A stretch of DNA of 64,000 bases from an uncultured Bacteroidia bacterium (GTDB taxonomy: Bacteria; Bacteroidota; Bacteroidia; Bacteroidales; F082), in NCBI GenBank assembly GCA_902801465.1, contig CADCIH010000015.1, forward strand, positions 29,566-93,565, in the 5' to 3' direction. Shown piece by piece: positions 4,197 through 44,417 of the stretch. Under the pieces are notes generated by a model. It worked only from the letters and a program-made list of their open reading frames with translations. It did no database searches and had not been told where the DNA came from. The translations under genes and the position numbers were made by a program. How positions within the stretch are numbered: the stretch's first letter is position 1; each line of letters starts with the position of its first letter.

Positions 4197-4205
4197 TTTC
4201 AAATT

Positions 4206-4239
4206 TTTGGCAAAAATAACGAATAGTTAACTATCTTTG
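4206..4239 (+). promoter_or_regulatory. Promoter of the glycosyltransferase gene
   Basis: TTTG at 4206-4209 and TATCTTTG at 4232-4239 with a 22-base spacer match the Bacteroidota consensus. The start codon (TTG, 4258) lies 18 bases beyond the -7 box, implying a very short leader. Confidence 0.6.
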
Positions 4240-4257
4240 CCGAACAATTATTGCGTT

Positions 4258-5277: not shown

Positions 5278-5331
<54 letters not shown>

Positions 5332-5436
5332 CCATTGTTTGCGGATGCAAAATTACAGCTTTTTTTGAAACCGACAATAATTTTTTATAAAAATTTCAGT
5401 TTTTTTTCGGATATTTGCACCCCGAAATTGAAGATA

Positions 5437-27860: not shown

Positions 27861-27895
27861 ACAACTAAGTCACTGATTATCAGTAGAATAAAGAA

Positions 27896-27924
27896 GGCTG
27901 TTAGGTTAACTAACAGCCTTTTTT
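27896..27924 (+). terminator. Terminator of the DUF2795 gene
   Basis: GGCTGTTAG and CTAACAGCC form a 9-bp stem with GTTAA as loop, followed by TTTTTT. Homologous hairpins with different but compensating stem bases are found at 44,253 and 46,439. Confidence 0.9.
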
Positions 27925-28510
27925 GTGTTCAAATAAGTCATTATTTGACGTCATTTGATCCGAAAAGTTAACCTAAAGTTGTACATAATTACTCCTTTTT
28001 TTCTACGATGAAGTAATTGCACGGAAATTTTTGTAAGTCATTGGTAATGAATGTGTTTGATGCGAAAAGTTAGGTTAACTTACTTTTCGATGAAATTGCA
28101 TGATTTTGCATGGGTTTCTGTTGTTAATCCGTTGATTTTCGGTTATATACGTTTTACATTCTCTGCAAACAGTTTCTTGGTGGAAATACGAGGTTTTTTG
28201 TGGACAAATAACGAAATTTTGTCTATGTAAAAAAAGCGTGAAAATTCACTTGTTTTTACACGAATTTATGGAGTATTTTGTCGAAAATCGGGTTGGAACA
28301 CCTGGATGATTCCGCCTATTTTAACCTAAAAACGATGTTTATCATATTGAAAACCAAAACGTTGTAAACTAAAATTGCAAAACTTGGCCATTTAATACTC
28401 GCTTTTGTCATAAGAAGACGAATAGTAAGTGGTTCCGAGGGGATGTTTTGTTAGTGTGAAAATGCCGACCAGATACTTTTTTTCTCCACTGACTACCACG
28501 GTGCCGGGAT

Positions 28511-30195: not shown

Positions 30196-30373
30196 ATATT
30201 TTTTGAAGGTGCGCTATCATTTTCAAAAAACTATTTTGGGCTCATTACACCAATCCTGGTTGGCTTTCAGTTGGAAGGCTGGTAAGTTGCTGGCTGGGTT
30301 GTTAAGGTGTCCCGGTGGAGACGAAAGGGGTGATGAGGTTTGTTTTTTATTGAGATAATTGATTGTATTGGTT

Positions 30374-30411
30374 CTTGTGCATCAATCTGGCACAGCCCTT
30401 CTTTTTCTTTG
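30374..30411 (+). promoter_or_regulatory. Palindromic operator/promoter, copy 1 (RavA gene)
   Basis: CTTGTGC...GGCACAG, a degenerate form of the palindrome, followed by CTTCTTTTTCTTTGC. TTTCTTTG is the presumed -7 box. The RavA ATG is at 30432. Confidence 0.6.
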
Positions 30412-30431
30412 CGCCATCAAATCGATGATTT

Positions 30432-31970
30432 ATGGACGCAAAAGCACAAATATCAGCCTTGCTGAAGCAATTGTCAGAAGGCGTTTTCGAGAAGCAGCAT
30501 ATCCTTGCAGTGGCTCTATTGAGCACTGTGGCTGGCGAAAGCATTTTTCTTCTTGGGCCTCCTGGAACAGCCAAGAGCCTTGTGGCTCGAAGATTGAAAC
30601 TGGCATTCAAGGACGGCAAGTCATTTGAATACCTCATGTCGAGGTTCAGCACCCCGGACGAAATCTTCGGCCCCGTTTCCATTTCGCTCCTCAAAAATGA
30701 AGACCGCTATGAAAGGGTCGTAGAAGGCTTTTTGCCGACAGCGCATATCGTCTTCCTTGATGAGATCTGGAAAGCCAGCCCATCCATTCAAAACGCCTTG
30801 CTCTCCGCTATCAATGAGCGCATCTTCCAAAATGGCGACAAAACACTGCACCTACCCATGAAGGCTTTGATAGCGGCCAGCAATGAGCTGCCTGCCGAGG
30901 ATGAAGGCCTCGAAGCTTTGTGGGATAGGTTCCTCGTTCGTATGGTGTCGAACTGCATCCAGAGCGAAACCGAGTTTTTCAAGATGATTAAGCAAAAGGT
31001 TATTACCGAAGTCGCCATTCCCGACAATCTCCAGATTACCGATGCGCAGTACGAAGAATGGCAACACGAAATCGAAGCCGTGCAGATTACCGACGAAACC
31101 TGTGCTGCTGTGTCGCACATCCGCAAGCGGCTGAAAGAGGAGACCAAGGAGGAAGGCGTGAACGCCATGGATTATTACATCTCCGACCGCCGTTGGAAAA
31201 AATGTTTCCGCCTGCTTCAAGCATCGGCTTTTCTCAATGGCCGAAAAGCCGTTGACTTGACCGACATCCCGCTGCTGATTCATTGCCTTTGGAACAAGTC
31301 CGAAACCATACCCATTGCCATCGACTTGGTTTGCACCAGTCTTACTGCAAACATCGACAAACAGCTTGACAAGTTGGAAAAAGACATCGACAAGGCACTG
31401 AAAGATAAAGGCAAATCAGGGACTGGCCAGTCTTCAAATGGTAGCTTTTCCGTGTCAAGCTATTTCTATTACACACTCTTGAACTATCCCAAAGGTAGAT
31501 GCCTGTTTTATGTGGCCGACTATGAATATGTCGCTGAATATGAAACTGGCAACAGCACCAATGGCATCATCTATCCCGACAAGGATAAAAATGCTTGGAT
31601 TGTCCGGGCTTTGTACACAGGCGCACCATTCGCCTATAAGACCAGGGCAAACGCTAACGTGAAAAAGGTCACTCTGAAGAAATGCGCTGGCGGCATCATC
31701 ATCGATGGAATCCCATACGGCTTTGAAAAGATTCGTGGTGGTGGCGCCAGTCTGTTTGATAGCTACGAGAATGTGGCCACCATAGCACTGAACACATTGG
31801 CCACCACCATTCAACCCCAAATGCAAAAACTGAAAGAGTTGTTTGCAGGTACCGCCAACATCTTCCTTTCAGATGATGATTTGAAAATCACGAAAAAGCA
31901 ATTCTCCCTTTGTGAAAAACGCATTGAGGAGGTCAAGGCCAAAGCTCAAAACGCTCAACAACTGCTCTGA
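30432..31970 (+). CDS. ravA: RavA-type MoxR AAA+ ATPase
   Basis: A 512-residue protein (E. coli RavA is about 500). AAA+ core of the MoxR clade: KQHILAVALLSTVAGESIFLLGPPGTAKSLVARRL with Walker A GPPGTAKS at 42-49, SRFSTPDEIFGPVSI, HIVFLDEIWKASPSIQNALLSAINER (Walker B plus pre-sensor insert), ALIAASNELPAEDEGLEALWDRFLVRM (sensor 1 and Arg finger). The C-terminal half fits RavA's LARA region. RavA works as a hexamer with the VWA protein ViaA, which follows after 8 bases. In E. coli the pair affects respiratory complexes and aminoglycoside entry; here its neighbours suggest another task. Codon use is more AT-rich than in the core genes. Promoter with operator copy 1 lies upstream. Confidence 0.88.
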   Translation: MDAKAQISALLKQLSEGVFEKQHILAVALLSTVAGESIFLLGPPGTAKSLVARRLKLAFKDGKSFEYLMSRFSTPDEIFGPVSISLLKNEDRYERVVEGFLPTAHIVFLDEIWKASPSIQNALLSAINERIFQNGDKTLHLPMKALIAASNELPAEDEGLEALWDRFLVRMVSNCIQSETEFFKMIKQKVITEVAIPDNLQITDAQYEEWQHEIEAVQITDETCAAVSHIRKRLKEETKEEGVNAMDYYISDRRWKKCFRLLQASAFLNGRKAVDLTDIPLLIHCLWNKSETIPIAIDLVCTSLTANIDKQLDKLEKDIDKALKDKGKSGTGQSSNGSFSVSSYFYYTLLNYPKGRCLFYVADYEYVAEYETGNSTNGIIYPDKDKNAWIVRALYTGAPFAYKTRANANVKKVTLKKCAGGIIIDGIPYGFEKIRGGGASLFDSYENVATIALNTLATTIQPQMQKLKELFAGTANIFLSDDDLKITKKQFSLCEKRIEEVKAKAQNAQQLL

Positions 31971-31978
31971 TTCTCGCC

Positions 31979-33319
31979 ATGGACATCGAAAAGAAATTAC
32001 AGGAATACGACGAAGCCTTTGATTTATATTTGGATCAAGGCCGAATGCCTGACACCATTCCGCCCGGCGACCCACTTGGCAGCTTCATGGGGCAGGCCTT
32101 AAACAACAATCCTCAGTTGGTAGGCCAAGACCCGCTTTGGGCTGAAATCCTGAAAGACGAGATGATGAAATTCATCGAAGCCATGCTGAAACTGTTTCAG
32201 CCTATCGAGCAAGCCTACCTTCGTGAAAAGCGAATGATCAAGGTTGTTATGGGTGGCTCCATTGGCCAAATTAGAACAGGTTGGAAAGAAACCTATCATT
32301 ACATAAAAACGAACTACACCACCTCCGAAGTCAATATTGACGGTTATGTTGATCAAATGAAAGGCCAAGACCCGGAGCCAATCATGAAATCCTTGGCCAA
32401 AGACTGGGATAAAGCCTGTGAGGAAAAATACTTGAAGACCAGGCATGACCTCATCGAGCAGAACAGACAGAAATGGGAAACACATCTGTGGTACCATGGT
32501 AATGACGACTTCAAGGAGCGTAGGAAGATAGAAAGCCTTTTCTATTCCTACCCTCAGTTGGTCGACATCGTTCGCATCATAGGACGCGAGCAACCCGAGC
32601 GCAAGGATGAGCTGGACGATACCGTCAGACGCTATCTGCCCATCCTTCCATCACCTCCAAAACCAGCCGCCGAAATAGAACAGATTGAGCTGGGTAACGA
32701 CCTGCAGCACCTGCTACCCATCGAAACGGCCATCATGTCAGAGAAGCAGACCGAAAGCCTGTTCTACCTCAAATATGCTACGCGCAAGCTCCAGCTTTTT
32801 GCCAACAAACCGAAAAACGAAAGCCAGGCAAAGATGGAACAGCAGCACAACGCCAAACCAAGGCTGGAGAAAGGCCCTATCATTGTGAGCGTCGATACCA
32901 GCGGCTCCATGATGGGTCGTCCCGAACAAATAGCCATGTGCTTGCTGACCCAACTGTTGAGGATGGCAAAGAAGCAGAAGCGCCATTGCTTCCTAATCCA
33001 GTTCTCCGTCCGGGCAAAGTACCTTGATTTGAGCCGTCCCAACGCTTGGGCAAAGCTGAATTCATTCCTTGAAGACCGTTTTTCTGGTGGTACAGACGGA
33101 GAGGAAATGCTTCGTTCAGCCTTAAATATGCTGTCGTCTGCCAATTTCTCAATGGCAGATGTCCTAATCATCAGCGATTTTATGTTCCCTGTTCCAAGAC
33201 CTGCCACCAACGAATGGATGCGTAAGGAACACGATAAAGGGACGCGGTTTTATGGCCTCCAAATCGGCAAAGCCCACAACCCTTACAACGATATTTTGGA
33301 TAAGATATGGAAAGCGTAG
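31979..33319 (+). CDS. viaA: ViaA-like VWA-domain protein, partner of RavA
   Basis: A 446-residue protein whose C-terminal third is a von Willebrand A domain with an intact MIDAS: IIVSVDTSGSMMGRPEQIAMCLLTQLLRMA, RFSGGTDGEEMLRSAL and VLIISDFMFPVP. The N-terminal part is helical, as in ViaA, which stimulates RavA ATPase activity and connects it to targets. It lies 8 bases after ravA and its last 13 bases overlap the metallopeptidase gene, so all three are one translation-coupled unit. Confidence 0.85.
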   Translation: MDIEKKLQEYDEAFDLYLDQGRMPDTIPPGDPLGSFMGQALNNNPQLVGQDPLWAEILKDEMMKFIEAMLKLFQPIEQAYLREKRMIKVVMGGSIGQIRTGWKETYHYIKTNYTTSEVNIDGYVDQMKGQDPEPIMKSLAKDWDKACEEKYLKTRHDLIEQNRQKWETHLWYHGNDDFKERRKIESLFYSYPQLVDIVRIIGREQPERKDELDDTVRRYLPILPSPPKPAAEIEQIELGNDLQHLLPIETAIMSEKQTESLFYLKYATRKLQLFANKPKNESQAKMEQQHNAKPRLEKGPIIVSVDTSGSMMGRPEQIAMCLLTQLLRMAKKQKRHCFLIQFSVRAKYLDLSRPNAWAKLNSFLEDRFSGGTDGEEMLRSALNMLSSANFSMADVLIISDFMFPVPRPATNEWMRKEHDKGTRFYGLQIGKAHNPYNDILDKIWKA

Positions 33320-33936
33320 AAAAAAGACAGCCCCGATATTGGATCAATCCCAATTCACGGATTCGGTTCACTTACTTCAGCATTGAATGGCACCTTTGCG
33401 ACCATCAGGATTTAATGCAAGACCACAGGCCTGACAACGACTACAGGAAGTCGTACCGCACCAAAAACACCTGTGTGATTGTCCTCGTCATCAAAGACCA
33501 TTCAAAAACCGACATTCTGTATTCTGAAGAAGTCGATTTCAACAACTTGAAGTTGCAGAAATGGCTAAGGGAAAACATTAAAGACCAGGTTGTCCAACGC
33601 GCATCCCTTGTGTTGCCCCAAAGAATGCACGAGCTTGAAAACAAGCACCAATTATTCGCACAAGGCGTAAAGGTGAAGCCGCTGCGCAAAGGTGTTCTGG
33701 GGCAATGCACCCACACCAATTACATCACGCTTTCTCCCATCATCGTCATATTTCCCCAAGAGCTGATGGATGATGTCATCCTTCACGAAATGGCGCACCT
33801 AAAACATCACCATCACCGCAAGTCATTTTGGAAATTCCTTTCGGAACTCATCGGGGAAGATGCCAAACAGCAGAAACTCGCACAAGACATCGCACTCTCC
33901 AAATACTGGGGCTTCTACACATTTTTGATGAAATGA
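33307..33936 (+). CDS. YgjP/DUF45-type M48-superfamily metallopeptidase
   Basis: A 209-residue protein with HEMAHLKHHHHRKSFW at 160-175, matching the zinc motif HExxHLxxxxHxxxFW of the YgjP-like domain (DUF45). His160, His164 and His170 would bind zinc and Glu161 acts as base. The N-terminal 100 residues (RFTYFSIEWHLCDHQDLMQDH...) are not recognised. YgjP-like domains also occur at the end of some restriction-associated proteins. Overlap with viaA by 13 bases makes it the third part of a RavA-ViaA-peptidase set, in which the ATPase pair could present a target to, or activate, the protease; that is inference. Confidence 0.8.
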   Translation: MESVEKRQPRYWINPNSRIRFTYFSIEWHLCDHQDLMQDHRPDNDYRKSYRTKNTCVIVLVIKDHSKTDILYSEEVDFNNLKLQKWLRENIKDQVVQRASLVLPQRMHELENKHQLFAQGVKVKPLRKGVLGQCTHTNYITLSPIIVIFPQELMDDVILHEMAHLKHHHHRKSFWKFLSELIGEDAKQQKLAQDIALSKYWGFYTFLMK

Positions 33937-33952
33937 TTCTTTACTATTTTTG
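33924..33952 (+). promoter_or_regulatory. Promoter of the PLD gene
   Basis: TTTG at 33924-33927, 17-base spacer, TATTTTTG at 33945-33952; ATG at 33974. The -33 box is within the 3' end of the metallopeptidase gene. Unlike the neighbouring promoters it lacks the GCCTGTGC palindrome. Confidence 0.55.
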
Positions 33953-33973
33953 CACACATAAAATACCACAGCC

Positions 33974-34486
33974 ATGTTGAAATACATCAGTGATAAAACC
34001 CATTATGCCGAAGTCCTTGCCCGTGTCCCCAAAGTGAAAAGAAGCATTTGGATTGGCACCGCCGACATCAAAGACCTCTATGTCAAAGTCGGCTCTCAGA
34101 TGAAGCCTTTCCTTGCTGTCTTGGCGCAACTTATCAAAAAAGGTGTCGAAGTTCGGCTCATTCATGCCAAGGAACCTGGCCCAGCCTTCCGCGAAGACTT
34201 CGACAAATACCCGGCTTTGTTCGATGGTCTTGAAAGGGCGCTCTGTCCGAGGGTACACTTCAAGATCTTGGTCTTCGACGGCCAGATGGCCTACATCGGC
34301 AGCGCAAACCTCACTGGGGCTGGCATCGGAATGAAAGGAGAAGGCACCCGCAACTTCGAGGCGGGCATCCTTACCGACAACCCCGAATTGGTTGAGCAAG
34401 CCATGAACCAATTCGATGCCGTATGGATAGGCAAACATTGCGCCCGCTGCAAACGGAAAGCCTTTTGCGGTGACCCGATTGCATGA
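33974..34486 (+). CDS. Phospholipase D-superfamily nuclease (single HKD motif)
   Basis: A 170-residue protein. One HKD motif, VHFKILVFDGQMAYIGSANLTGAG with His95, Lys97 and Asp102, and a following GEGTRNFEAGIL typical of Nuc/BfiI-like PLD nucleases, which act as dimers to build the active site. The N-terminal half (KRSIWIGTADIKDLYV, LIKKGVEVRLIHA) is the usual beta-alpha part. The tail CARCKRKAFC has CxxC...C, a possible zinc site. A DNA- or RNA-cleaving role is likely; with the RavA-ViaA set upstream it is a candidate effector. It has its own promoter and no signal peptide. Confidence 0.8.
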   Translation: MLKYISDKTHYAEVLARVPKVKRSIWIGTADIKDLYVKVGSQMKPFLAVLAQLIKKGVEVRLIHAKEPGPAFREDFDKYPALFDGLERALCPRVHFKILVFDGQMAYIGSANLTGAGIGMKGEGTRNFEAGILTDNPELVEQAMNQFDAVWIGKHCARCKRKAFCGDPIA

Positions 34487-34515
34487 TTTTTTGAAAAAAA
34501 CACACAATCCTTTTG

Positions 34516-34554
34516 GCCTGTGCAACTAATTGGCACAGGCTTCATTTTTCTTTG
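34516..34554 (+). promoter_or_regulatory. Palindromic operator/promoter, copy 2 (AAA gene)
   Basis: GCCTGTGC (34516-34523) and GCACAGGC (34533-34540), then 14 bases ending in TTTCTTTG (34547-34554). The AAA gene starts at 34596. The same sequence could also terminate the PLD transcript. Confidence 0.7.
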
Positions 34555-34595
34555 CAGCATCAAAGCAAAAAAAATCATTTAAAAAAAGGATTGCC

Positions 34596-36254
34596 ATGGA
34601 AACCAAGAAAAAAACGACCCCAAAAATGGACTTATTATCTGCTGTGGAAAAAGTAGTAGAACTTTCAAAAGGCTCTCACCTTGATACTGACTTCTTCAAA
34701 AAAGCAGCACGACCCATAAAATTCATCGCTGATAAGCTTGAACTTACCAAGGAACAAAGCGTGATGATGGCTCTTTTCATTGACAATAGCAGCGATACGA
34801 GTATCAGAATTAGCGATTTCGCCGAAAAGCTCGAATGTAGCACCACTCGTATCTTACGTTTTATGAAAGATGTCGATGAGCTGGCAAATAGAGGGTTGGT
34901 TTATTCCTGCCGTGAACGAAAGGGTATAACCTATCGGGTACCATTGGAAGTAATCGAGGCTTTCAAACAAAACGAAAAATACACACCGAGCATGCACACT
35001 GGATTGTCTTGTTCAGACTTATTCAGCGTAATTTCAGAAATCATGGATATGCGTGATGACAATGAATTAAGCACAGAAACAGCAACAACAATGCTACAAT
35101 CTTTGCTTGAAAACAACAAACAATTGCTCTTCGTACAAAAGTTGAAGAGTTTCAAGTTTTGGGAAGAAGACGAATTGCTGCTGCTTATTTTTTCGCATCT
35201 GTTTGTCAATAACAATGACGACAATATCGGCTTTCACGACCTTAGCTTCTTTTACGACCGCAGACACAGATGGAATTCAATCAAAAGTTCCCTTGCCAAC
35301 AATACAAACAACTTATTGGAAACAAAGATGATCGAATACAACAACGACAACGGCTTTGTAAACAATGAGTCGTTTAGAATGACCTGGCAGGCTAAAGAGC
35401 AACTGTTTTCCGAACTCAACCTTGCTTCAATGAACCAAGAAAACGACAGAAAGAACGTCATCAAGTATGAAGGGATTGTTGAGAAACAGCTCTTCTATGA
35501 TAAAGAAGTGGAGTCACAGGTTAAGGATTTATGCCAATTGTTAGAAGAGTCGCATTATCGTGATATTTGCAGTCGTTTAGAAGCTAAAGGTCAACGGACA
35601 GGATTCACTTGTTTGTTCTACGGTGCTCCTGGAACAGGCAAAACCGAAACCGTGCTGCAATTAGCGCGTCAGACGGGTCGCGATATCATGCAGGTCAACA
35701 TTTCGGAAGTCAAGAGTATGTGGGTTGGCGAAAGCGAAAAGAACATCAAAGAGATCTTCGACAAGTACCGTACAAAGGTTGAGAAATCTACCGTTGCGCC
35801 CATTTTGCTTTTCAACGAAGCTGATGGTATCATAGGCAAACGTCAGGAAGGAGCGGAGCGTGCCGTTGACAAGATGGAAAACTCCATCCAGAACATCATA
35901 CTTCAGGAGATGGAAAACCTTAAAGGCATTCTCATAGCCACCACCAACCTTGCTCAAAATATGGACAAAGCCTTTGAGCGTCGCTTCCTTTACAAAATCA
36001 AGTTCGTCAAACCTTCTTTGGAAGCTCGAATGCAAATCTGGCGTGCCATGCTCCCCGAGCTTCAAGACAGCGTCATCAAAGCTTTGGCCGAGAAATACAA
36101 TTTCAGCGGAGGCCAAATCGAAAATGTTTCCCGGCATTACGCCATCGACACAGTCTTACATGGTGAAAGTGCGGATTCTTTGGAAAATCTTTTAGCACAT
36201 TGCGACGGCGAACGCATAGAGCAGGCTGAATGTCGCAAAATTGGCTTTAGATAA
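34596..36254 (+). CDS. AAA+ ATPase with N-terminal winged-helix-like region
   Basis: A 552-residue protein starting at the ATG of 34596 after a purine-rich RBS. Residues 40-120 look like a winged helix (DTSIRISDFAEKLECSTTRILRFMKDVDELANRGLVYSCRERKGITYRV). A helical middle follows. The AAA+ core has Walker A GAPGTGKT (343-350), NISEVKSMWVGESEKNIKEIFDKY, Walker B ILLFNEADGII with Asn407 where Asp is usual, NIILQEMENLKGILIATTN (sensor 1) and AFERRFLYKIKF (Arg finger). This layout is known from Bacteroidota AAA proteins of unknown role. The Walker B change keeps the Glu and occurs in other members I recall, so activity is still plausible. Confidence 0.85.
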   Translation: METKKKTTPKMDLLSAVEKVVELSKGSHLDTDFFKKAARPIKFIADKLELTKEQSVMMALFIDNSSDTSIRISDFAEKLECSTTRILRFMKDVDELANRGLVYSCRERKGITYRVPLEVIEAFKQNEKYTPSMHTGLSCSDLFSVISEIMDMRDDNELSTETATTMLQSLLENNKQLLFVQKLKSFKFWEEDELLLLIFSHLFVNNNDDNIGFHDLSFFYDRRHRWNSIKSSLANNTNNLLETKMIEYNNDNGFVNNESFRMTWQAKEQLFSELNLASMNQENDRKNVIKYEGIVEKQLFYDKEVESQVKDLCQLLEESHYRDICSRLEAKGQRTGFTCLFYGAPGTGKTETVLQLARQTGRDIMQVNISEVKSMWVGESEKNIKEIFDKYRTKVEKSTVAPILLFNEADGIIGKRQEGAERAVDKMENSIQNIILQEMENLKGILIATTNLAQNMDKAFERRFLYKIKFVKPSLEARMQIWRAMLPELQDSVIKALAEKYNFSGGQIENVSRHYAIDTVLHGESADSLENLLAHCDGERIEQAECRKIGFR

Positions 36255-36284
36255 TACCACAGAAACAATATAGAGATTTTTCAA

Positions 36285-36323
36285 GCCTGTGCTTCATATC
36301 GGCGCAGGCTTCCTTTTTCTTTG
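36285..36323 (+). promoter_or_regulatory. Palindromic operator/promoter, copy 3
   Basis: GCCTGTGC (36285-36292) and GCGCAGGC (36302-36309), one mismatch, then 14 bases ending TTTCTTTG (36316-36323). A second, plain -7 box (TATTTTTG, about 36,353) lies nearer the ATG at 36409. Confidence 0.65.
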
Positions 36324-36408
36324 CTTCAAAATAAAACAGAATGTTTTTTGACTATTTTTGCAGCAAGTACTGAGATACAAGATTAAAGTTCAACAAAAAC
36401 ATAATATT

Positions 36409-36750
36409 ATGCCACAGCTAATTAACTACGGTAAAGAGATGCTTAGAATCTCTCCAAAAGGAATTGAGTACTCCACCAATAGTGGACGCTCATGGATTTC
36501 ACGTTACACTGGTTCCTCATGCGGAACATTCATTGACCTTTTGCCATACGGCAGCGAGCTACTTGCCATAACCTCAAAAGGCATTTACTATTCCACCAAT
36601 GAAGGCCGTTCGTGGATTTCACGATACACAGGATCTTCATGCGGAGTGTTTCAAAACCTCGCCGATGGAGGAAAAGAACTCCTTGCCAACACCAACAAGG
36701 GCTTGTACTATTCTACCAATAGCGGAAGGTCGTGGATTAAGAGAAGATAA
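36409..36750 (+). CDS. Mini-protein of three Asp-box/BNR-like repeats (113 aa)
   Basis: The 113 residues are almost entirely three copies of a unit of about 38 residues with YSTNSGRSWISRYTGSSCG as core: (I/L)LxISxKGIEYSTNSGRSWISRYTGSSCG, then ITSKGIYYSTNEGRSWISRYTGSSCG, then NTNKGLYYSTNSGRSWIKRR. StNxGrSW is an Asp-box-like (BNR) beta-hairpin found in propellers of sialidases and VPS10. Three blades are too few for a closed propeller, so it would need to oligomerise. No signal peptide. It is followed after 21 bases by the membrane protein gene, so the pair may be one operon. Function unknown. Confidence 0.7.
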   Translation: MPQLINYGKEMLRISPKGIEYSTNSGRSWISRYTGSSCGTFIDLLPYGSELLAITSKGIYYSTNEGRSWISRYTGSSCGVFQNLADGGKELLANTNKGLYYSTNSGRSWIKRR

Positions 36751-36771
36751 ACCTCAAAAACAGTTACAATC

Positions 36772-38184
36772 ATGAGTAAATTCAAATCTTTTTACGGCGA
36801 AAACAAGACCTTTGTTCGTTTGCTTATCGGCTGCTTACTCCTACTGGCTTTGTTTGTTGGTGTGGCAACACTATCCGGGTCATGGCCCGGGTCTGATGCT
36901 TCTGCACAAATACTCTCTGCTTTGGCTGGAGCTGTTGTGGCTGCCATCATCACACTATTCCTCCTTCTTGGTCAGACATCAAGCGAAGAAAAAAAGGAAC
37001 GCAACACAAAGGTTTTTGAGGAAAAACTTCAAATCTACCAAGATTTTTTGCATTGTCTCTATGATGTCATCAAAGATGGCAAAGTTACCAAAGAGGAAGC
37101 AATTCAATTGGAATTTCAGACATCATATATCACCATGCATACCGATAGTGATAGGATTAAGGAAATTGCTAAACAAGTAAAAACCATTGTGGACAGTTTA
37201 AATGATGAGGGTATTCCTTCAGATACAGCAAGTGCTGCTGAAAAAGAGGCAAGAAAAAATGATGTTTTGATGGAAAATCTGTTTGGGATTGTCAATGAAT
37301 TTAAGAAAGAGCTCTACCAAACAGTTCCTACTGAAAAAGACGACCTTAACAGAAAGGAGTCTATTAAATGCTTTAGCTCAATAATCGAAGCAGTAGAAGT
37401 GGAAAAAACCGAAAAAGAGTCTAATATCTCTGCAACTGAAACCCCTTCCGACTTGAAACAAAACCTCGTTGATTTTACTGCTGAACTGCTTAAACGTTTA
37501 TCGTTAAATGAAGAGATTTGGAAAATTGATACAGGTGACATGGATGGTGGAATTTATCTCAATATTGCTAAAAAGGGTAATGAAGAAGGCACTAGGATTA
37601 TCTTCAGCCATGAAGATAATGGAGAGCATTATTTCCAAATCCATTTGGAGTCTGGTGACACCCATGAAATATACAAGCACATGAAATGGCGTTTTGGCGG
37701 TCGTCAAAACAAATGGAGTTGGTGGAAGTATTTGGATGTTTACATGAGGAACCTTACATCATTAGAAGAAATAAAAAGCCGAAATTGGGATTCTATTATG
37801 GCCAACATTTCCAAAAATCTGAAAGATTTAGTTGTCTATGTGGAAACTTTAGAGAAAATCCAAAATGAGATTTATCAGCCAGCACCAAAGGGAAAGGCTA
37901 ATGTATGGCTTTATTACGAAAAATGCGTTGCTTTTGATTACGAGAAGACACTGAATGAGGATAGATTGTTCATGGATGTTGAACTCAATGAAAAGGGCTA
38001 TTCGATCACTTTAGGTAACCGCGACAATGACAAACAAAAACTGCTTTCTAGGCTGAATGGCATAAATGTTTTTGGCAATTTGACAGAGTCCTTTTTACAG
38101 GATGGCCGTTATGCCGCCTACACCGAACTATCAGCCTCAGAAGCCGTTGCAAAGATAAATGAGATAGACAGCAAAATCTCATAG
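36772..38184 (+). CDS. Two-helix membrane protein of unknown function
   Basis: A 470-residue protein. Two hydrophobic segments close to the N-terminus (about 15-35, FVRLLIGCLLLLALFVGVATL, and about 43-66, AQILSALAGAVVAAIITLFLLLG) would leave the long C-terminal part in the cytoplasm. That part is charged and largely helical up to residue 240, with repeated Lys/Glu (coiled-coil-like). The last 200 residues alternate Trp-rich strands (HMKWRFGGRQNKWSWWKYLDVYMRNL). No family is recognised. The arrangement of paired membrane helices followed by a large soluble domain is common for membrane-tethered conflict proteins, which is inference from context only. Confidence 0.65.
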   Translation: MSKFKSFYGENKTFVRLLIGCLLLLALFVGVATLSGSWPGSDASAQILSALAGAVVAAIITLFLLLGQTSSEEKKERNTKVFEEKLQIYQDFLHCLYDVIKDGKVTKEEAIQLEFQTSYITMHTDSDRIKEIAKQVKTIVDSLNDEGIPSDTASAAEKEARKNDVLMENLFGIVNEFKKELYQTVPTEKDDLNRKESIKCFSSIIEAVEVEKTEKESNISATETPSDLKQNLVDFTAELLKRLSLNEEIWKIDTGDMDGGIYLNIAKKGNEEGTRIIFSHEDNGEHYFQIHLESGDTHEIYKHMKWRFGGRQNKWSWWKYLDVYMRNLTSLEEIKSRNWDSIMANISKNLKDLVVYVETLEKIQNEIYQPAPKGKANVWLYYEKCVAFDYEKTLNEDRLFMDVELNEKGYSITLGNRDNDKQKLLSRLNGINVFGNLTESFLQDGRYAAYTELSASEAVAKINEIDSKIS

Positions 38185-38217
38185 GCTTCGCTCGGATTTA
38201 TATATCGTTTTTTTTCA

Positions 38218-38256
38218 GCCTGTGCTCTCATTCGGCACAGGCTTTCTTTTTCTTTG
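38218..38256 (+). promoter_or_regulatory. Palindromic operator/promoter, copy 4
   Basis: GCCTGTGC (38218-38225) and GCACAGGC (38235-38242), then 14 bases ending TTTCTTTG (38249-38256). The next start codon is 38282. Confidence 0.7.
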
Positions 38257-38281
38257 CGCTCTAATCCTAAATCAAAGCATT

Positions 38282-38497
38282 ATGAGTAAAGTATTTAAAG
38301 TATGGCCCAAAAGGGTCAAAAGAGCAAACGGCACGGTTCTTACACCAGAAATGGTTATCGTTGTCACTACCAAAATCCATGTTTCCAACCCCTTCAGCAA
38401 TGGTGCCCAGGAAATCAAGGACACCTACATGCGAATCTACCAGTTCGACTACAAGAAAGCCAACTGCTATCAGTCTGATTTCAATTATGAGGCGTAA
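38282..38497 (+). CDS. Small basic protein, 71 aa, unknown
   Basis: ATG at 38282 lies 26 bases after the -7 box of operator copy 4. The product MSKVFKVWPKRVKRANGTVLTPEMVIVVTT... is basic at the N-terminus and Tyr-rich at the C-terminus (DTYMRIYQFDYKKANCYQSDFNYEA). No family is recognised, but the placement directly behind a shared promoter suggests a real gene. It could be a small regulator or an antitoxin-like partner of the DUF262 genes that follow; that is a guess. Confidence 0.55.
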   Translation: MSKVFKVWPKRVKRANGTVLTPEMVIVVTTKIHVSNPFSNGAQEIKDTYMRIYQFDYKKANCYQSDFNYEA

Positions 38498-38509
38498 GAC
38501 TGATTTGTT

Positions 38510-38540
38510 TTTGTCATCATGTAGAAAACTCGTAGTTTTG
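38510..38540 (+). promoter_or_regulatory. Promoter of the DUF262 gene pair
   Basis: TTTG at 38510-38513, 19-base spacer, TAGTTTTG at 38533-38540; ATG at 38572. A perfect consensus promoter without the palindrome, so the DUF262 pair can also be expressed independently. Confidence 0.7.
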
Positions 38541-38571
38541 CAAAATTATAATCATATATAAACAAAGCAAA

Positions 38572-40245
38572 ATGAATGAAAACGCCACAATCACTTTAAG
38601 GCAGTTTTTAGCAAAAGGAAAAACTTTCGTAATTCCTAACTACCAGAGAGGCTATGTGTGGGGCAAATCAAGAGGCTCTGAGAAGGATTCCGTTAAATAT
38701 CTGCTTGAAAGCATTGAGAATAGTATAGTTAATAACACAGAATTATTTCTGCAAGGTGTAACAGTCACCGAAATGGATGATAGTATCATCCTAATTGACG
38801 GTCAGCAAAGAACTACGTTTTTTTATCTACTGCTGACATGCTTAAACTATCAAAATCCCTTTGATCTGAATTATCCCATCAGAAAAGAATCAGACACTTT
38901 CCTTAAATCTCTAAAAGGCTTAAACCAAACAGAGTTACGTGAAATATGCAAAGAAAACCAAGAAGAGGAGTATCAGGATATTTTTTATTTCAAAAAGACT
39001 ATTAGAGAAATCCTTGACAAAGCATCAAGCTGGAATATGAACAAAATTCTTGATCAAGTTAAGTTTCTCTACATTGATATTGCAGCCGAAAAAGCAACTT
39101 TGGTCTTCTCAATGATGAATGGTAGTAAGGCCGACATGAAAACAGAAGAAATCATCAAAGCCGAAATGCTTAGGTTGGTATCTTCCGATAAAGAAACGGC
39201 AAACAGCCAACAAGAGTCCGAAGCCATACATTGGGAACAAAATCTGTTAAGGAGCAAATATGCACGAGAATGGGATAAATGGCTTTATTGGTGGAATCGT
39301 GAAGAGGTCACCGAGTTTTATCACACCGGAAAAAGCATTATGGGTCTTCTGGTTAAAACCTACTTAAAATCAAAAGGCGGTTCGATTCCCAAAGAAGGAA
39401 GATATTTTGAACAATTCAGAGATAAGCTTTTGCGCGGTGAAAACAACGAAATACTATCTAAAAATGTATTTTACGACCTGCGCCATTTACAGAAAAAATT
39501 CGAGGATGTGTTCAATGACAGCCGTCTTTATAATACGATAGGCGCAATACTCACTCTACACAACAGCGAAGACAGGGAACGTTTTGTTCAATGGTACTTT
39601 ACAACCGATGATCCAAAAGACTTAGACAGATATTACAAGCTAATCTTTTTAGGTTTGACGCACACCGTTATTCTCGCGAAGGACACCGAAGAACAAGTTG
39701 AAACCGCCAAAGAACAGATGTTGCAAGCCATCAGCAGTGACAATCTTTATAATGAAAATTCCATCTATGCCTTTATGCAACTTTTAAGACGTAACATTGA
39801 GGAAGACACCAAATTGCATAGAAAGTTCATTTTCAATATTTGGCAAGAAAAGTCACTTGAACATATTTACCCAAAGTCGAAGTTTTACAAGGTTGTAAAA
39901 GGCACAGGGGAAACACCAAGATATATTAGGGGAGATGGCAACGAAATTTCAGAAAACGAAATTAGTGACCTAATAAACGAATCAGCTTTTCAAGGACAAG
40001 GCAATGAACATTGTATTGGAAACCTTGTGTTGCTCTACAAAAATGAAAATTCAGGATTCGGCGCGAAATCCTTTGATGACAAAAAATCCATCTATTTTAA
40101 TGTTGATGTAGAAAAGCCTTTCAAAAGCCGTCATCTGTTACATACGATTTCCGTTTTTGCAAATAAAGAGTGGGGAGTTAAGCAGATTGTAGAGAACAAA
40201 AAACAATTCATAACCGAAATCAAAAACTACTATGGAATACAATAG
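38572..40245 (+). CDS. DUF262 + DUF1524 (GmrSD-type) protein
   Basis: A 557-residue protein. The N-terminal DUF262 domain shows VIPNYQRGYVWG (20-31) and LIDGQQRTTFFYLL (74-87), the ParB/sulfiredoxin-like NTPase motif of GmrS. The C-terminal DUF1524 domain shows an HNH-type nuclease: SLEHIYPKSK (His431), HCIGNLVLLYKNEN (Asn483, Asn491) and FGAKSFDDKK. GmrSD and relatives (BrxU, SspE) cut modified phage DNA in an NTP-dependent way. The full motif set suggests an active nuclease. Its last 14 bases overlap the second DUF262 gene. It is the most likely nucleic-acid-cleaving effector of the island besides PLD. Confidence 0.88.
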   Translation: MNENATITLRQFLAKGKTFVIPNYQRGYVWGKSRGSEKDSVKYLLESIENSIVNNTELFLQGVTVTEMDDSIILIDGQQRTTFFYLLLTCLNYQNPFDLNYPIRKESDTFLKSLKGLNQTELREICKENQEEEYQDIFYFKKTIREILDKASSWNMNKILDQVKFLYIDIAAEKATLVFSMMNGSKADMKTEEIIKAEMLRLVSSDKETANSQQESEAIHWEQNLLRSKYAREWDKWLYWWNREEVTEFYHTGKSIMGLLVKTYLKSKGGSIPKEGRYFEQFRDKLLRGENNEILSKNVFYDLRHLQKKFEDVFNDSRLYNTIGAILTLHNSEDRERFVQWYFTTDDPKDLDRYYKLIFLGLTHTVILAKDTEEQVETAKEQMLQAISSDNLYNENSIYAFMQLLRRNIEEDTKLHRKFIFNIWQEKSLEHIYPKSKFYKVVKGTGETPRYIRGDGNEISENEISDLINESAFQGQGNEHCIGNLVLLYKNENSGFGAKSFDDKKSIYFNVDVEKPFKSRHLLHTISVFANKEWGVKQIVENKKQFITEIKNYYGIQ

Positions 40246-42400
40246 CTTAATTACTGGCAAGTCATACAAATTGACAGATTTGTTCTCAAAAGACAACAAG
40301 ATTATCATTCCCGACTTGCAGCGTGACTACTGCTGGGGAACTACTAATGACAAAGACGGGAATAATCTAGTTGCTAAATTCTTTGATAGCCTGTATGAAA
40401 ACAAAGATAAGGAACTGAATTTGGGTCTTCTTTACGGCTACGAGGCTCCGCTTGGCCATATACAACTTTGTGACGGCCAGCAACGAATTACCACATTATT
40501 TCTTCTACTTGGAATGCTCAACAAGAATACTGATGACTTATTTAGGCGTTTATTGATTTCGGAATCTGAAGAAAATGATGACTGGGAACCTTATTTGCAA
40601 TATGCTATTCGTGAAAGCTCTTTGTATTTCTTAAGCGATTTGACGCGATTCTTTTTCATCGAGAATAAAGCAATGAAAGTTGATGAAATCAAAACTCAGC
40701 CATGGTATTTCAAAGATTATGATCTCGATCCAAGCATCCAAAGCATGATTATGGCGATGAAAACCATTGAGCAAAAGACTGTTGGGATTGATTGTAAGAG
40801 TTTTGGTATCCATATTGCTGAACAGTTAAACTTCCTATACTATAACATGGGCAACCGCAGCAAGGGAGAAGAGACCTTTGTGGTCATCAACACCACTGGA
40901 GAGCCGTTGTCATCGACCGAAAATTTAAAGCCTCTACTAATAAGTAAGCAACCAATCGAAAAACAAAAAGAATGCGCTCAAAAATGGGAACGGTGGGAAC
41001 ATTTCTTCTGGAAGAACAGAGGTAAAAACGACACCGCTGACAATGGTTTGAAAGAGTTCTTTAGATGGGTAATGCTTCTACAACAACCTTCAAACACCGA
41101 AGACTTCAAACGCATTCAAAGCGACGGTAACTATAAGTTTGATGTCAATATTCCATTCGATGTTATTGATACCTATTTTCAAATTGTATCAGAAAAACTC
41201 TTTTCTCGTGATAGTGCCATCTTTCCTAACAATAAGCAATGGCTTGCACCTGACATCGATGGTAACACTCAAATCGTTTGGTTCAGACTTGTACCTATGA
41301 TAGAATATCTTTACCGTTTTAAAGATGCTTCTGCAAGAGAAGTTTGGCGTGTTAGAATGTTTTTCAGAAATCTTTCAAAAGTACCAAGAGTAGAAAGCGA
41401 TTTGTACAACAGAGACATCAAAAGACTTGGTAAGGTTTTGCCCGATGCAATCCGAATCGCAAAAGAAATGCCTTCCAAAGACATTTGTTCCATTCTACAG
41501 ATGGAAAATGTTTCAACTACAATAATTTCTGAAGAGGTGAAATTAAAGTTGGAGATTTATTCTCATGCCTCCAATAGAGATGCTATAGAAGAGTCCTTCT
41601 GGAAAGAAGAGGAATCTAATATCTGGAGTGGTGAAATTATGCCAATGATTTCTTGGGCATCCGAGGACAATTCTTTTGATTACAACTTCTTTGAATCATA
41701 CCGGGCCAAGTTTAACAAAGTGTTCCATGATGTTTTGGAATACAATGAACTTGATATTACCCGTCGCGCTTTATTAACATGTGGATTGAAAGATTACCCT
41801 CGTATTTTCAATGGTTACACAAATTATTCTTTCGCTTGGGAGTATACAGATTGGAAGGCTCTGATAAACGACAATGTTGCCAAATTCAAATCCTTTCTTG
41901 ATGCATTGGATATAGATAACATCTACAAAGCTCAAGAGGAAATGATTGCAGTTAATCCTTCAAGCAAAGACTACGATGAATTTGTAAAAATACCTGAATT
42001 ATTACGGTATTGCACCAAAAAGAATATCCAATGGTGGGGCGATGAATTAGGCTGGGTGCTTATTAGCCAAGGTACAGCGAGAACTTTCGTTAATCTTAAA
42101 ACTTATCGCCTATATCTTGACTTAAAAGAGAAAAGCAACATGGTGCATGTTTGGGAGAAAGATCAATCATGCGTATTTGTGCAGCCAAAATCCGACGATT
42201 GGACAATTGATGCATGGCATCAAGGTAATGATAAATATGCCGTCAATCTTTTCCGTAGACATAATAAAACAGAGAATACCTTTGAAGAAATTCCTGGTGA
42301 ATTTAGTTTGTTGTGGAACGGTGAACGATATGAGAAAAAAGACATGACGAAAGACCATGCCATTGAATTGGTTTTAGCATTGATTGCAAAACTATCTTGA
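40232..42400 (+). CDS. Second DUF262 protein, longer and without HNH motif
   Basis: A 722-residue protein starting 14 bases inside the preceding gene. DUF262 motifs are present: IIIPDLQRDYCWG (25-36) and LCDGQQRITTLFLLLG (79-94), then NMGNRSKGEETFVVINTTGEPLSSTENLKPLLI (the conserved N-terminal helix/Asn segment). The C-terminal 450 residues show no DUF1524 HxxP...GN motif; they are Trp-rich (WWGDELGWVLI, FAWEYTDWKALI) and unassigned. As the two DUF262 proteins are translationally coupled, the second may sense or regulate the first. The C-terminal region may recognise DNA or a phage product. Confidence 0.8.
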   Translation: MEYNSLITGKSYKLTDLFSKDNKIIIPDLQRDYCWGTTNDKDGNNLVAKFFDSLYENKDKELNLGLLYGYEAPLGHIQLCDGQQRITTLFLLLGMLNKNTDDLFRRLLISESEENDDWEPYLQYAIRESSLYFLSDLTRFFFIENKAMKVDEIKTQPWYFKDYDLDPSIQSMIMAMKTIEQKTVGIDCKSFGIHIAEQLNFLYYNMGNRSKGEETFVVINTTGEPLSSTENLKPLLISKQPIEKQKECAQKWERWEHFFWKNRGKNDTADNGLKEFFRWVMLLQQPSNTEDFKRIQSDGNYKFDVNIPFDVIDTYFQIVSEKLFSRDSAIFPNNKQWLAPDIDGNTQIVWFRLVPMIEYLYRFKDASAREVWRVRMFFRNLSKVPRVESDLYNRDIKRLGKVLPDAIRIAKEMPSKDICSILQMENVSTTIISEEVKLKLEIYSHASNRDAIEESFWKEEESNIWSGEIMPMISWASEDNSFDYNFFESYRAKFNKVFHDVLEYNELDITRRALLTCGLKDYPRIFNGYTNYSFAWEYTDWKALINDNVAKFKSFLDALDIDNIYKAQEEMIAVNPSSKDYDEFVKIPELLRYCTKKNIQWWGDELGWVLISQGTARTFVNLKTYRLYLDLKEKSNMVHVWEKDQSCVFVQPKSDDWTIDAWHQGNDKYAVNLFRRHNKTENTFEEIPGEFSLLWNGERYEKKDMTKDHAIELVLALIAKLS

Positions 42401-42419
42401 TTTATTACTTAACAATCAA

Positions 42420-42458
42420 GCCTGTGCCTCAATTCGGCACAGGCTTTTTGTATCTTTG
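42420..42458 (+). promoter_or_regulatory. Palindromic operator/promoter, copy 5 (WYL gene)
   Basis: GCCTGTGC (42420-42427) and GCACAGGC (42437-42444), then 14 bases ending in a perfect TATCTTTG (42451-42458). WYL ATG at 42480. This copy has the best -7 box and places the palindrome over the -33 to -7 spacer, as expected of an autorepressor site. Confidence 0.75.
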
Positions 42459-42479: not shown

Positions 42480-43394
42480 ATGTCAAAAAACCAAATCAAC
42501 AAGTACGTCTGGCTCGTCGAAACTCTCTACAAAGCCAAGAAAATCACCTTGAAGGAAATCAATCAGAGATGGTTGGAAACAGATTTGAGCGAAGGATTGG
42601 AAATTCCGCGCCGCACTTTTGATAACTGGAAGAATGCGGCTGAAGAAATGTTCGGTCTTGTTATCCTATGCGACAAGCGCGATGGCGACCGCTACTACAT
42701 TGAGAATCGAGAAGTGCTTGAAGACGATGGGCTTCAACGGTGGCTTCTCAATACTATGTCGGTCAATAACACCTTGCTCGAAAACAAGTCTCTCAGTGAC
42801 CGCATCCTGTTAGAGAACATTCCTTCTGGTCAAGATTTCCTTGCTTTAGTCATGGAAGCCATGAAGAAAAGCAAGGTGATTAAAATCACCTATAAAGGCT
42901 ATTGGAGCGAACACGAACATACATTCCCCGTCGCTCCATATTGTATTAAGCTTTTCCGTCAACGATGGTACCTTGTGGGCAACAGCGTTTACGAGGATAA
43001 AATTCGCATTTATGCTCTTGACCGTGTTCAGAATATTGGCTTAACAAGTGAGCCATATAAATATCCTAACGATTTTAGCCCTGAGGTGTACTTTGAGGGC
43101 TATTTCGGAATCATTCATGATGATGACTGCTCCTTGGAGACAGTGAAGTTGAAAGTCTGTTCAGACCAAGCCAATTACATGCGTTCTTTGCCTATGCACC
43201 CCTCTCAGGAGGAGATGGAGCGCAACGACAATTATAGTGTCTTTGCTCTATATCTTCGTCCAACCTTTGATTTCCAGCAAGAACTCCTTTGGAACGCCGA
43301 TGCTCTTGAAGTCTTAGAGCCGATATGGCTCCGTAAAGAAATAGCTGGTAAAATCAAACGTATGTGGAACATGTATAAAGGCGACAAGAAATGA
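42480..43394 (+). CDS. WYL-domain transcriptional regulator
   Basis: A 304-residue protein of the type common in Bacteroidota. The N-terminal 90 residues form a winged helix (YVWLVETLYKAKKITLKEINQRWLETDLSEGLEIPRRTFDNWKNAAEEMFGLVILCDKRDGDRYYI). A WYL domain (about 120-220: SKVIKITYKGYWSEHEHTFPVAPYCIKLFRQRWYLVGNSVYEDKIRIYALDRVQNI) is expected to bind a ligand such as nucleic acid, and a WCX C-terminal part follows. WYL proteins (CapW, BrxR) repress anti-phage operons from inverted repeats in promoters. The gene's own promoter carries the GCCTGTGC palindrome found at four other promoters of this island. It overlaps the exonuclease gene by four bases. Confidence 0.9.
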   Translation: MSKNQINKYVWLVETLYKAKKITLKEINQRWLETDLSEGLEIPRRTFDNWKNAAEEMFGLVILCDKRDGDRYYIENREVLEDDGLQRWLLNTMSVNNTLLENKSLSDRILLENIPSGQDFLALVMEAMKKSKVIKITYKGYWSEHEHTFPVAPYCIKLFRQRWYLVGNSVYEDKIRIYALDRVQNIGLTSEPYKYPNDFSPEVYFEGYFGIIHDDDCSLETVKLKVCSDQANYMRSLPMHPSQEEMERNDNYSVFALYLRPTFDFQQELLWNADALEVLEPIWLRKEIAGKIKRMWNMYKGDKK

Positions 43395-43882
43395 AAGACT
43401 TTGCCGCTATCGATTTTGAGACCGCCAACTATCAGCGTTCTTCCGTTTGCTCTGTGGGAATTATCATCGTTCGTAATGGCGAATTTGTTGATTCGTATTA
43501 CTCCCTCATACAACCGGAACCTAACTACTACAACTATTGGTGTACTGAAGTTCATGGTCTCTGTCGTCAAGACACCGAAGACGCACCTGTGTTTCCCGTT
43601 GTGTGGAAACAAATCGAGCCTCTTATCAATGGCTTACCGTTGGTGGCTCACAACAGCCCTTTCGATGAAGGATGTTTGAAAGCCGTATTTCAGGTGTATC
43701 AGATGGATTATCCCGACTATGATTTCTTCGACACGTTGTGTGTATCTCGCCGTAAGCTTCCAGAGTTGGAAAACCATCAGTTGCAAACCGTAGCTGCGGC
43801 TTGTGGCTACAATCTTGAAAATCATCATCACGCATTGGCCGATGCTGAAGCTTGTGCTTGGATTGCAAGAGAACTACTATAA
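43391..43882 (+). CDS. DnaQ-like DEDDh 3'-5' exonuclease
   Basis: A 163-residue single-domain protein. Exo I: FAAIDFETAN (Asp8, Glu10); Exo II: PLVAHNSPFDEGCLKAVF (Asp); Exo III: LENHHHALADAEACAWIA with HxxxxD. It resembles the exonuclease epsilon subunit fold. The ATG overlaps the WYL stop (ATGA), so the two are co-translated. Pairing of a WYL regulator with such an exonuclease is frequent in Bacteroidota, which suggests the exonuclease may generate or clear the ligand of the WYL domain; that is inference. Confidence 0.9.
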   Translation: MKDFAAIDFETANYQRSSVCSVGIIIVRNGEFVDSYYSLIQPEPNYYNYWCTEVHGLCRQDTEDAPVFPVVWKQIEPLINGLPLVAHNSPFDEGCLKAVFQVYQMDYPDYDFFDTLCVSRRKLPELENHQLQTVAAACGYNLENHHHALADAEACAWIARELL

Positions 43883-44194: not shown

Positions 44195-44283
44195 ATCTTC
44201 CACGAAGATGAGTACTAATTAGCAACTAACTGAAAATCAGTTAAATAAAGAAGATCCTTAGGTTAACTAAGGGTCTTTTTTTA
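44195..44283 (+). repeat. DUF2795 3'-end remnant with terminator (copy B)
   Basis: Reads IFHEDEY-stop (ending 44218), a small AACTGA...TCAGTT hairpin and the terminator GATCCTTAG-GTTAA-CTAAGGGTC plus T-run, in the same order and spacing as after the intact gene. Confidence 0.8.
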
Positions 44284-44417
44284 TTCCATTTTTGGCCGAT
44301 TTCGGGCCTCTTTTCGCGAAAAGTTAACCTAAATTGTACCTAATTATTCCTTTTTTTCTAAGAAGATGAATAGTAAAATAGCGGAGTTAGAAAGTGAAAA
44401 ACACAACAAAGACTTGT

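Follow-up and report, generated by a model that had tools for sequence, protein, structure and literature searches.

Introduction

Regulators with a WYL domain have been described in several bacterial systems, for which we rely throughout on the excerpts of the cited papers available to us. DriD of Caulobacter crescentus is a WYL activator of an SOS-independent DNA damage response (PMC12340889), and PafBC of mycobacteria is a WYL activator triggered by single-stranded DNA (ssDNA) (PMC11804915). Among defence regulators, the WYL proteins CapW (PMC9122588) and BrxR (PMC9122601, PMC9122589) are repressors, as is RptR (PMC12255303), a protein of a different fold that governs a defence island. In the literature compared, as far as these excerpts go, WYL regulators of defence are described one system at a time. 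A survey of the open-licence literature, with subscription papers and preprints mostly outside its scope, gave, among the papers listed, no account of the motif described here or of a multi-promoter WYL regulon in Bacteroidales. The present study concerns a 64,000-nt stretch (the window) of contig CADCIH010000015.1 from an uncultured member of the Bacteroidales, in which one palindrome recurs ahead of five transcription units of a gene island, including the unit of the island's own WYL-WCX regulator.

Comparison among related genomes establishes the site itself, its geometry, its association with the WYL gene and its travel with the downstream gene. The same comparison with related bacteria makes the island's own WYL regulator the most likely owner of the site, which would place an exchangeable set of island genes under a single switch.

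Five promoters with a common palindrome

Bacteroidales promoters follow a -33/-7 consensus. The window contains five palindromes of 25 bp, each made of 8-bp arms and a 9-nt spacer, and each is followed by a -7 box that can be read directly:

30373..30397, forward strand: putative operator 1, three arm mismatches (the weakest match), ahead of the bpMoxR-VWA-YgjP-PLD genes
30404..30411, forward strand: -7 box TTTCTTTG after operator 1
34516..34540, forward strand: putative operator 2, no arm mismatches
34547..34554, forward strand: -7 box TTTCTTTG after operator 2
36285..36309, forward strand: putative operator 3, one arm mismatch
36316..36323, forward strand: -7 box TTTCTTTG after operator 3
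38218..38242, forward strand: putative operator 4, no arm mismatches
38249..38256, forward strand: -7 box TTTCTTTG after operator 4
42420..42444, forward strand: putative operator 5, that of the WYL gene itself, no arm mismatches
42451..42458, forward strand: -7 box TATCTTTG after operator 5

With up to three mismatches allowed, the window has six matches; 100 dinucleotide shuffles average 0.20 and never exceed 1. The sixth, at 31098, has three mismatches, lies within the bpMoxR gene without a -7 box and was excluded from the set. An earlier sequence-only reading of this DNA had proposed five promoters sharing a palindrome of fixed geometry, and the count bears this out; its spacer of 9 or 10 needs correction, as the spacer is 9 in all five sites and the spacer-10 form has no match in the window at up to three mismatches. 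Four of its site coordinates stand, and the first site starts at 30373, in the register of the other four, rather than at 30,374. The right arm is followed in all five cases by exactly 14 nt ending in TTTG, as that reading had it, with TTTCTTTG in four sites and TATCTTTG ahead of the WYL gene; the 25-mer thus ends 10 nt before TTTG. The distance from TTTG to the first ATG of the called open reading frames (ORFs) of the five units is 20-85 nt, close to the 22-90 claimed.

A repeat search of the window placed all five sites in one 48-nt family. A 40-column matrix run over the whole window scored them at 44-55 bits and found above 10 bits, besides these, only two of the same palindromes on the opposite strand, a scan that is partly circular because the training set of same-genus sites includes these five. 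Rfam at the gathering threshold reported only a tRNA in the window.

Co-occurrence with the WYL gene in the same genus

Exact copies of the 25-mer occur in 18 of 100 genomes, all of them among the 60 of the same genus (own genome included) and none among the 40 of other genera, and every listed match has a spacer of 9 although 7 to 12 was allowed. Many of the genomes are fragmentary metagenome assemblies, and the loci are related. A WYL protein of at least 75% identity is encoded in 38 of 99 same-genus genomes, in four as a partial match. When both strands and other TGTGC-N9-GCACA types are counted, at least three copies of TGTGC-N9-GCACA-N8-16-TTTGC are present in 30 of these 38 genomes versus 5 of the 61 without a close WYL gene (Fisher, 4e-13), and at least one copy in 35 of 38 versus 21 of 61. 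Site clusters therefore co-occur with this WYL gene, as had been predicted; the palindrome was also looked for as a common element of genomes lacking the gene, and its exact form in 0 of 40 other-genus genomes and its clusters in only 5 of 61 same-genus genomes favour the prediction. Of those five exceptions, G016 and G059 carry TGTGCA-N7-TGCACA sites near a distant WYL gene, G121 has a WYL gene 54% identical, the contig of G057 ends shortly past the last site and G056 is 78% complete. The second palindrome, TGTGCA-N7-TGCACA, has the same outer geometry and was seen near more distant WYL genes, both within the genus and outside it (loci L187, L188, L189, L190, L197, L200 and L201).

WYL genes of the genus were sorted into clades A-D, which are identity bands of WYL matches and not tree groups. 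The more distant clades are accompanied by variants of the same geometry, ACATGTGC-N9-GCACATGT, AGGTATGC-N9-GCATACCT and ACCTATGC-N9-GCACATAT. Clades B-D have 28 sites at spacer 9 and at most one per clade at any other spacer; clade B has 5 sites in 9 loci, so that some loci lack a recognisable site.

The genome of the window (2.46 Mb) has four WYL-domain genes. The window lies on its contig C15, and a second site cluster, on C11, also adjoins a WYL gene. In 21 stretches around 25-mer copies, interchangeable blocks of genes form arrays that run mainly on a single strand and stand between conserved chromosomal genes; 12 of the stretches include a full-length WYL orthologue, mostly at the array end.

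The site in other Bacteroidales

Outside the genus we relied on 80 named loci, the best of 563, selected by their WYL protein independently of the motif and drawn largely from Prevotella and other rumen or gut Bacteroidales. Spacer 9 accounts for 57 sites in 29 of these 80 loci, against 0-4 for each spacer of 4-8 and 10-15, and many WYL orthologues have a related element at the fixed place, for example ACCTCTGCC-N7-GGCGTACCC in a Prevotella group. Three loci whose contigs match same-genus contigs in length (L243, L249, L251) were omitted from the outside-genus sets, leaving 63 presumed to lie outside the genus, and two more had too little upstream DNA. A matrix trained on same-genus sites alone separated the remaining 61 WYL promoters from 696 other starts with an area under the curve (AUC) of 0.916; scores beyond the 95th percentile of the other starts were reached by 45, and beyond the 99th by 16. 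Twenty column-shuffled matrices gave a mean AUC of 0.444 (maximum 0.606), and the -7 part alone gave 0.760. The geometry linked to the WYL gene in the window thus also precedes WYL orthologues in other Bacteroidales.

At a score of at least 16 the matrix including its -7 part found 84 sites in 916 kb and none in one shuffle. Forty-six lie within 160 bp upstream of a WYL gene and 38 elsewhere, the latter including one site of a WYL gene itself at -207 and one reverse reading. Of the 34 ORFs behind these 38 sites (one double-counted), 27 have homologues in or beside same-genus arrays, among them bpMoxR, AAA, c8, c29, FtsZ-like, FtsK-like, HAD_SAK_2 and DnaE proteins; one of the 27 is the WYL gene at -207, a few are short matches, and DnaE stands beside the arrays rather than inside them. 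The half-sites of the WYL gene's own promoter resemble those of the other sites of the same locus, with a distance of 3.87 versus 5.22 when permuted (0 of 20000; 38 loci), and outside the genus 4.64 versus 5.04 (440 of 20000; 23 loci).

Prevotella sp. E2-28 has much of the window's gene set, in the order WYL, 3'-5' exonuclease, two DUF262 proteins, ZapA operon, ATP-binding protein, then an AAA ATPase accompanied by a hypothetical protein and an M48 protein, and finally dnaE. By order and size we read the AAA-hypothetical-M48 genes as bpMoxR-VWA-YgjP. Sites lie 57, 64, 67 and 99 bp upstream of WYL, the ZapA operon, the ATP-binding protein and dnaE, respectively, and one weaker match is the reverse of the ZapA site. 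Two Segatella records with a WYL protein 45% identical have weaker, altered sites and several matches without a nearby gene. In Segatella copri DSM 18205 (L308, 808-3788) an IS607/TnpB pair sits between two annotated WYL pieces, as though a WYL gene had been split by the insertion. In L038 a gene for DNA polymerase III alpha (1621-6249) has the same orientation as WYL-exonuclease and lies downstream of it, dnaE has its own putative operator in Prevotella loci (L307, 26825-28909; L250, L287, L288), and contig C12 of the window's genome yields a second match to this polymerase family, a shorter one. A phage search returned nine unannotated faecal records, with a best identity of 53%.

The WYL protein and its probable mode of action

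The window WYL protein matches Pfam PF13280 (E 8.9e-14) and PF25583 (WCX; E 1.2e-07), and R162-W163-Y164 is invariant in ten relatives. The N-terminus has no Pfam helix-turn-helix match; a structure model of middling quality (pLDDT 75.5, pTM 0.51) has helices at 2-19, 24-31 and 44-58 and two strands. Foldseek returned DriD and PafBC as best matches, then CapW and BrxR, all distant and with low TM-scores. From the comparative evidence above we consider it highly probable that this protein binds the site.

Repression by the WYL protein had been assumed in the sequence-only reading by analogy with CapW and BrxR. It is not supported as stated; the fixed geometry and a missing -33 element fit a DriD-like activator better. 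With a matrix blind to the -7 box, whose totals of 106 hits outside the genus and 328 inside count both strands of palindromes, TTTG starts 10 nt past the 25-mer in 65 cases outside the genus, at 9 nt in 2 and at 11-12 nt in none; inside the genus it starts at 10 nt in 133 and at 11 in 19, and T-rich tails add a further peak of 68 at 1-2 nt. On other promoters of this data set, a fresh measurement of the -33 spacing showed TTG enriched at gaps 19-20 before TAnnTTTG (8.0% and 10.7%; elsewhere about 2-4%). Operator promoters have no such enrichment (3.3% and 1.1%), and 46% of them have TTG at gap 14, inside the operator. TTG at gap 18-22 is found in 5 of 91 operator promoters versus 237 of 858 others (p 4e-7; the count of 237 was recovered from a fraction). 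Its scarcity implies that the site takes the place of the -33 element, and together with the invariant distance to the -7 box and the nearest folds, DriD and PafBC, this points to activation. We judge on balance that the WYL protein is an activator rather than a repressor.

A repressor with the same operator and regulon, sitting over the -33 position and released on binding a nucleic-acid ligand, is the alternative that survives best, although we think it rather unlikely. It would be in keeping with CapW and BrxR, which repress from palindromes in their own promoters, with the Acinetobacter BrxR site, which overlaps the -35 too, and with self-regulation, which is usual for repressors. Steric block, however, needs no invariant distance to the -7 box, nearly constant here, and should leave a usable -33 element, missing here; Foldseek, moreover, ranks the two activators above the two repressors. 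The sites from which BrxR and CapW repress vary in their placement.

It is very improbable that the site is bound by some other regulator, such as a LexA-like repressor or another WYL protein. The genome has other WYL-domain genes to offer, and other WYL subfamilies lie near the related TGTGCA-N7-TGCACA site, but the site clusters follow this WYL clade, the promoter of the WYL gene itself carries the site in other Bacteroidales and the half-sites co-vary. A LexA box was considered and rejected, as the motifs published in the sources seen differ. The proposal of a single regulon of five promoters including the regulator's own gains support from the co-occurrence and from the geometry ahead of WYL orthologues.

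Probably a promoter element rather than a terminator or recombination site

Among 74 same-genus sites, pairs with only the downstream flank in common (n=47) have spacers 0.85 identical, and pairs with only the upstream flank in common (n=7) 0.63, compared with 0.60 in unrelated pairs. Since the spacer is kept with the downstream and not with an upstream-only flank, the site belongs to the following gene, and this travel with the downstream gene indicates that it is mainly an operator-promoter and not a terminator. That the stems serve above all to end transcription of upstream genes as intrinsic terminators, their likeness being due to descent or recombination, thus seems hardly credible, even though they combine an 8-bp G+C-rich stem with a T-rich tail and four of the five in the window lie 20-34 nt after a stop codon. 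Terminator-like character is found in 63% of 125 distinct same-genus sites but in only 17% of 75 elsewhere, where the geometry to the -7 box is nevertheless retained; the spacer is constant at 9, and the site precedes WYL genes in 46 cases. A terminator-only reading was rejected on these grounds, and the suggestion that the stems double as terminators leaves them no more than a secondary function of this kind in this genus.

Equally slight is the probability that the palindromes serve recombination in an integron-like array of cassettes, their promoter position being secondary. In favour of it, blocks move from array to array on a single strand and pairs of sites often have just one flank in common, a picture that exchange by homology at a common promoter would also give. 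Against it, the element reaches into the -7 box and is present at WYL genes that stand outside arrays, and array contigs C11 and C15 have none of the genome's six tyrosine recombinase (PF00589) matches, serine recombinases, transposases and other recombinase types not having been searched for. A crossover inside the palindrome could not be placed, with only seven upstream-only pairs, at least one of which, L116/L124, turned out to have the same downstream flank shifted by one base.

Genes of the island and of related arrays

The genes of the island, all on the forward strand, are as follows:

30432..31970, forward strand: bpMoxR-type AAA ATPase, ravA-like (Pfam PF20030, E 1.7e-53)
31979..33319, forward strand: VWA protein, viaA-like (Pfam VWA_CoxE, E 3.7e-06)
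33307..33936, forward strand: YgjP-like metallopeptidase (Pfam)
33974..34486, forward strand: PLD-like protein, DrmC-like, probably in the bpMoxR-VWA-YgjP transcription unit
34596..36254, forward strand: AAA ATPase resembling IetA (Pfam/PADLOC, ORF)
36409..36750, forward strand: small protein with three 40-aa repeats (120-nt spaced repeat, ORF), the Asp-box gene of the sequence-only reading
36772..38184, forward strand: 470-aa protein without Pfam match, to which family c36 of two other arrays is related
38282..38497, forward strand: 71-aa protein of family c10, whose representative matches DUF6140
38572..40245, forward strand: GmrSD-type protein (N and C domain match)
40232..42400, forward strand: second GmrSD-type protein (N domain match)
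42480..43394, forward strand: WYL-WCX transcription regulator (Pfam WYL and WCX; structure model and Foldseek)
43391..43882, forward strand: 3'-5' exonuclease of RNase_T/DEDDh type, overlapping the WYL stop codon (an orthologue matches RNase_T)

PADLOC found no CBASS cyclase among the ten island proteins, and the AAA gene has better matches to IetA than to TRIP13, the latter being weak. The 3' end of a 73-aa gene (27639-27860), together with the terminator-like stem behind it, is repeated on both sides of the island, 75-84% identical, with copies at 27835-28011, 44196-44366 and 46379-46481 of the window and at 5398-5627 of L055, near that array's exonuclease; a possible explanation is an insertion hotspot or an island boundary repeat.

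Block representatives from the arrays match bpMoxR, VWA, YgjP, PLD, AAA, GmrSD, DUF6140, tubulin/FtsZ, RhuM-Fic and HAD_SAK_2, as well as PDDEXK_4, SMC-like AAA, FtsK, Nmad2, Nmad3 and, weakly, UDG; several block families have no domain match. PADLOC resemblances include IetA, DrmC, HEC-06/Orf5/SspE, SspH, mad3/mad8 and PDC-S26. From such domain resemblance we infer that the blocks are defence-like or repair-like. In 22 loci a site heads the gene run in 8 of 8 cases for AAA, 7 of 7 for DUF6140, 6 of 6 for FtsZ-like, 7 of 8 for c8, 7 of 8 for GmrSD a and 1 of 4 for PDDEXK_4; no site heads a run of five flanking families (GH20, PsuG, PfkB, ABC and adenylosuccinate lyase; 30 members). Partial WYL copies (C-terminal part) lie beside arrays in L041 (9106-9351) and L056 (14962-15201); the latter has an internal stop, and its genome also has a full-length copy.

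Proposed circuit and its meaning

As the best explanation we favour, by a modest inclination, a WYL dimer on each palindrome and one five-unit regulon in which it acts as activator. A dimer of the island's WYL-WCX protein would bind each 25-bp site and cover the -33 position, with an unvarying spacing to the -7 box. All five units, wyl-exonuclease included, would form one regulon. The operator-promoter would be the portable 5' end of each block, so that blocks could swap between islands and keep the same type of switch. ssDNA from phage replication or damage would bind the WYL protein, which would then anchor RNA polymerase on the promoters lacking -33, as DriD does; ssDNA sensing by the window protein is proposed by analogy with DriD. 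The adjacent 3'-5' exonuclease might remove the ssDNA and so reset the switch. An exonuclease homologue is found in 63 of the 80 named loci, 48-86% identical and in 50 beginning at most 160 nt past the end of the WYL match, and in PafBC assays added exonuclease I sharply lowered transcription (PMC11804915). That the exonuclease destroys the inducing ssDNA is a tentative suggestion, to which we incline less than to its opposite. More speculative still is a Bacteroidales-wide, LexA-independent alarm, in which the ssDNA-sensing WYL-exonuclease pair would activate its own operon and swappable defence or repair blocks via a portable promoter replacing -33, with the exonuclease ending the response; it is similarly doubtful whether this circuit in some genomes also drives DnaE polymerase and FtsZ- or ZapA-like division genes.

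Several observations weigh against this interpretation. Nine of the 21 array stretches have no full-length WYL gene (two have a partial copy and some are at contig ends), and no site heads the runs of c11 (0/7), c18 (0/5), the Fic family c26 (0/4) and c45 (0/3), in or near arrays; likewise the bpMoxR-like unit of E2-28 has no site of its own. Of the 30 same-genus genomes counted with three or more sites, at least two, G033 and G104, reach three only via other types, and the p values are optimistic because the loci are related. In other genera, 21 of 291 Bacteroidales genomes contain the pattern, one to three times, and a WYL gene lies within the fetched stretch in only 6 of the 21 (places in 11 were picked by eye and the other 10 fetched later; all 21 are counted); one of the six, G385, has nine sites in its WYL stretch, and several of the other-genus matches look like chance. 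Nine of the 61 outside WYL promoters fall below the 90th percentile of other starts, in L241, L242 and L275 the half-site of the WYL gene is unlike that of the target, and the defence-linked relatives CapW (PMC9122588) and BrxR (PMC9122601, PMC9122589) are repressors in the excerpts seen.

In several groups of Bacteroidales from gut and rumen, one operator readable from sequence marks the island genes under a presumed common switch. It names candidate defence or repair genes among uncharacterised ones, such as families c8, c25 and c29 and the FtsZ/tubulin-like and HAD_SAK_2 proteins, and a promoter that accompanies each block would account for the exchange of blocks with their control intact. 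It also opens to direct test the question of whether WYL proteins linked to defence can, like damage regulators, activate transcription in response to ssDNA.

Comparison with known systems

RptR resembles the proposed regulator in that a single protein governs a defence island through a site kept in different genomes, but has an alpha-helical fold and acts as a repressor on repeated 6-bp palindromes in one promoter (PMC12255303). CapW is a WYL homodimer with a palindrome in the promoter of an immune operon (PMC9122588); unlike the putative operators here, its sites lie over the -10 of one operon, and the island has no CBASS cyclase in PADLOC. BrxR is a WYL dimer with an inverted repeat before its own gene and a second site elsewhere in its island (PMC9122601, PMC9122589), and operator 5 matches the former trait of this family. 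BrxR, however, represses BREX genes from 10-11-bp repeats with a 5-bp spacer at differing places, and the present core is TGTGC-N9-GCACA, spacer 5 occurring at one site in the 80 loci.

PafBC, a WYL activator triggered by ssDNA, works with a promoter element that replaces the -35 contact (PMC11804915); it differs in being a heterodimer with a -26 motif, and the excerpts report no such palindrome. DriD shows 18-20% identity to the window protein in Foldseek alignments, does not activate its own gene and, in the parts of the account seen, is not described with cassette arrays. It is nevertheless like the proposed regulator in its WYL fold and its several target promoters, in a site over the -35/-33 position at constant distance from the -10/-7 element of promoters poor in -35/-33 (PMC12340889), and in a regulon that includes the exonuclease gene recJ, as the island has an exonuclease gene beside that of its WYL regulator.

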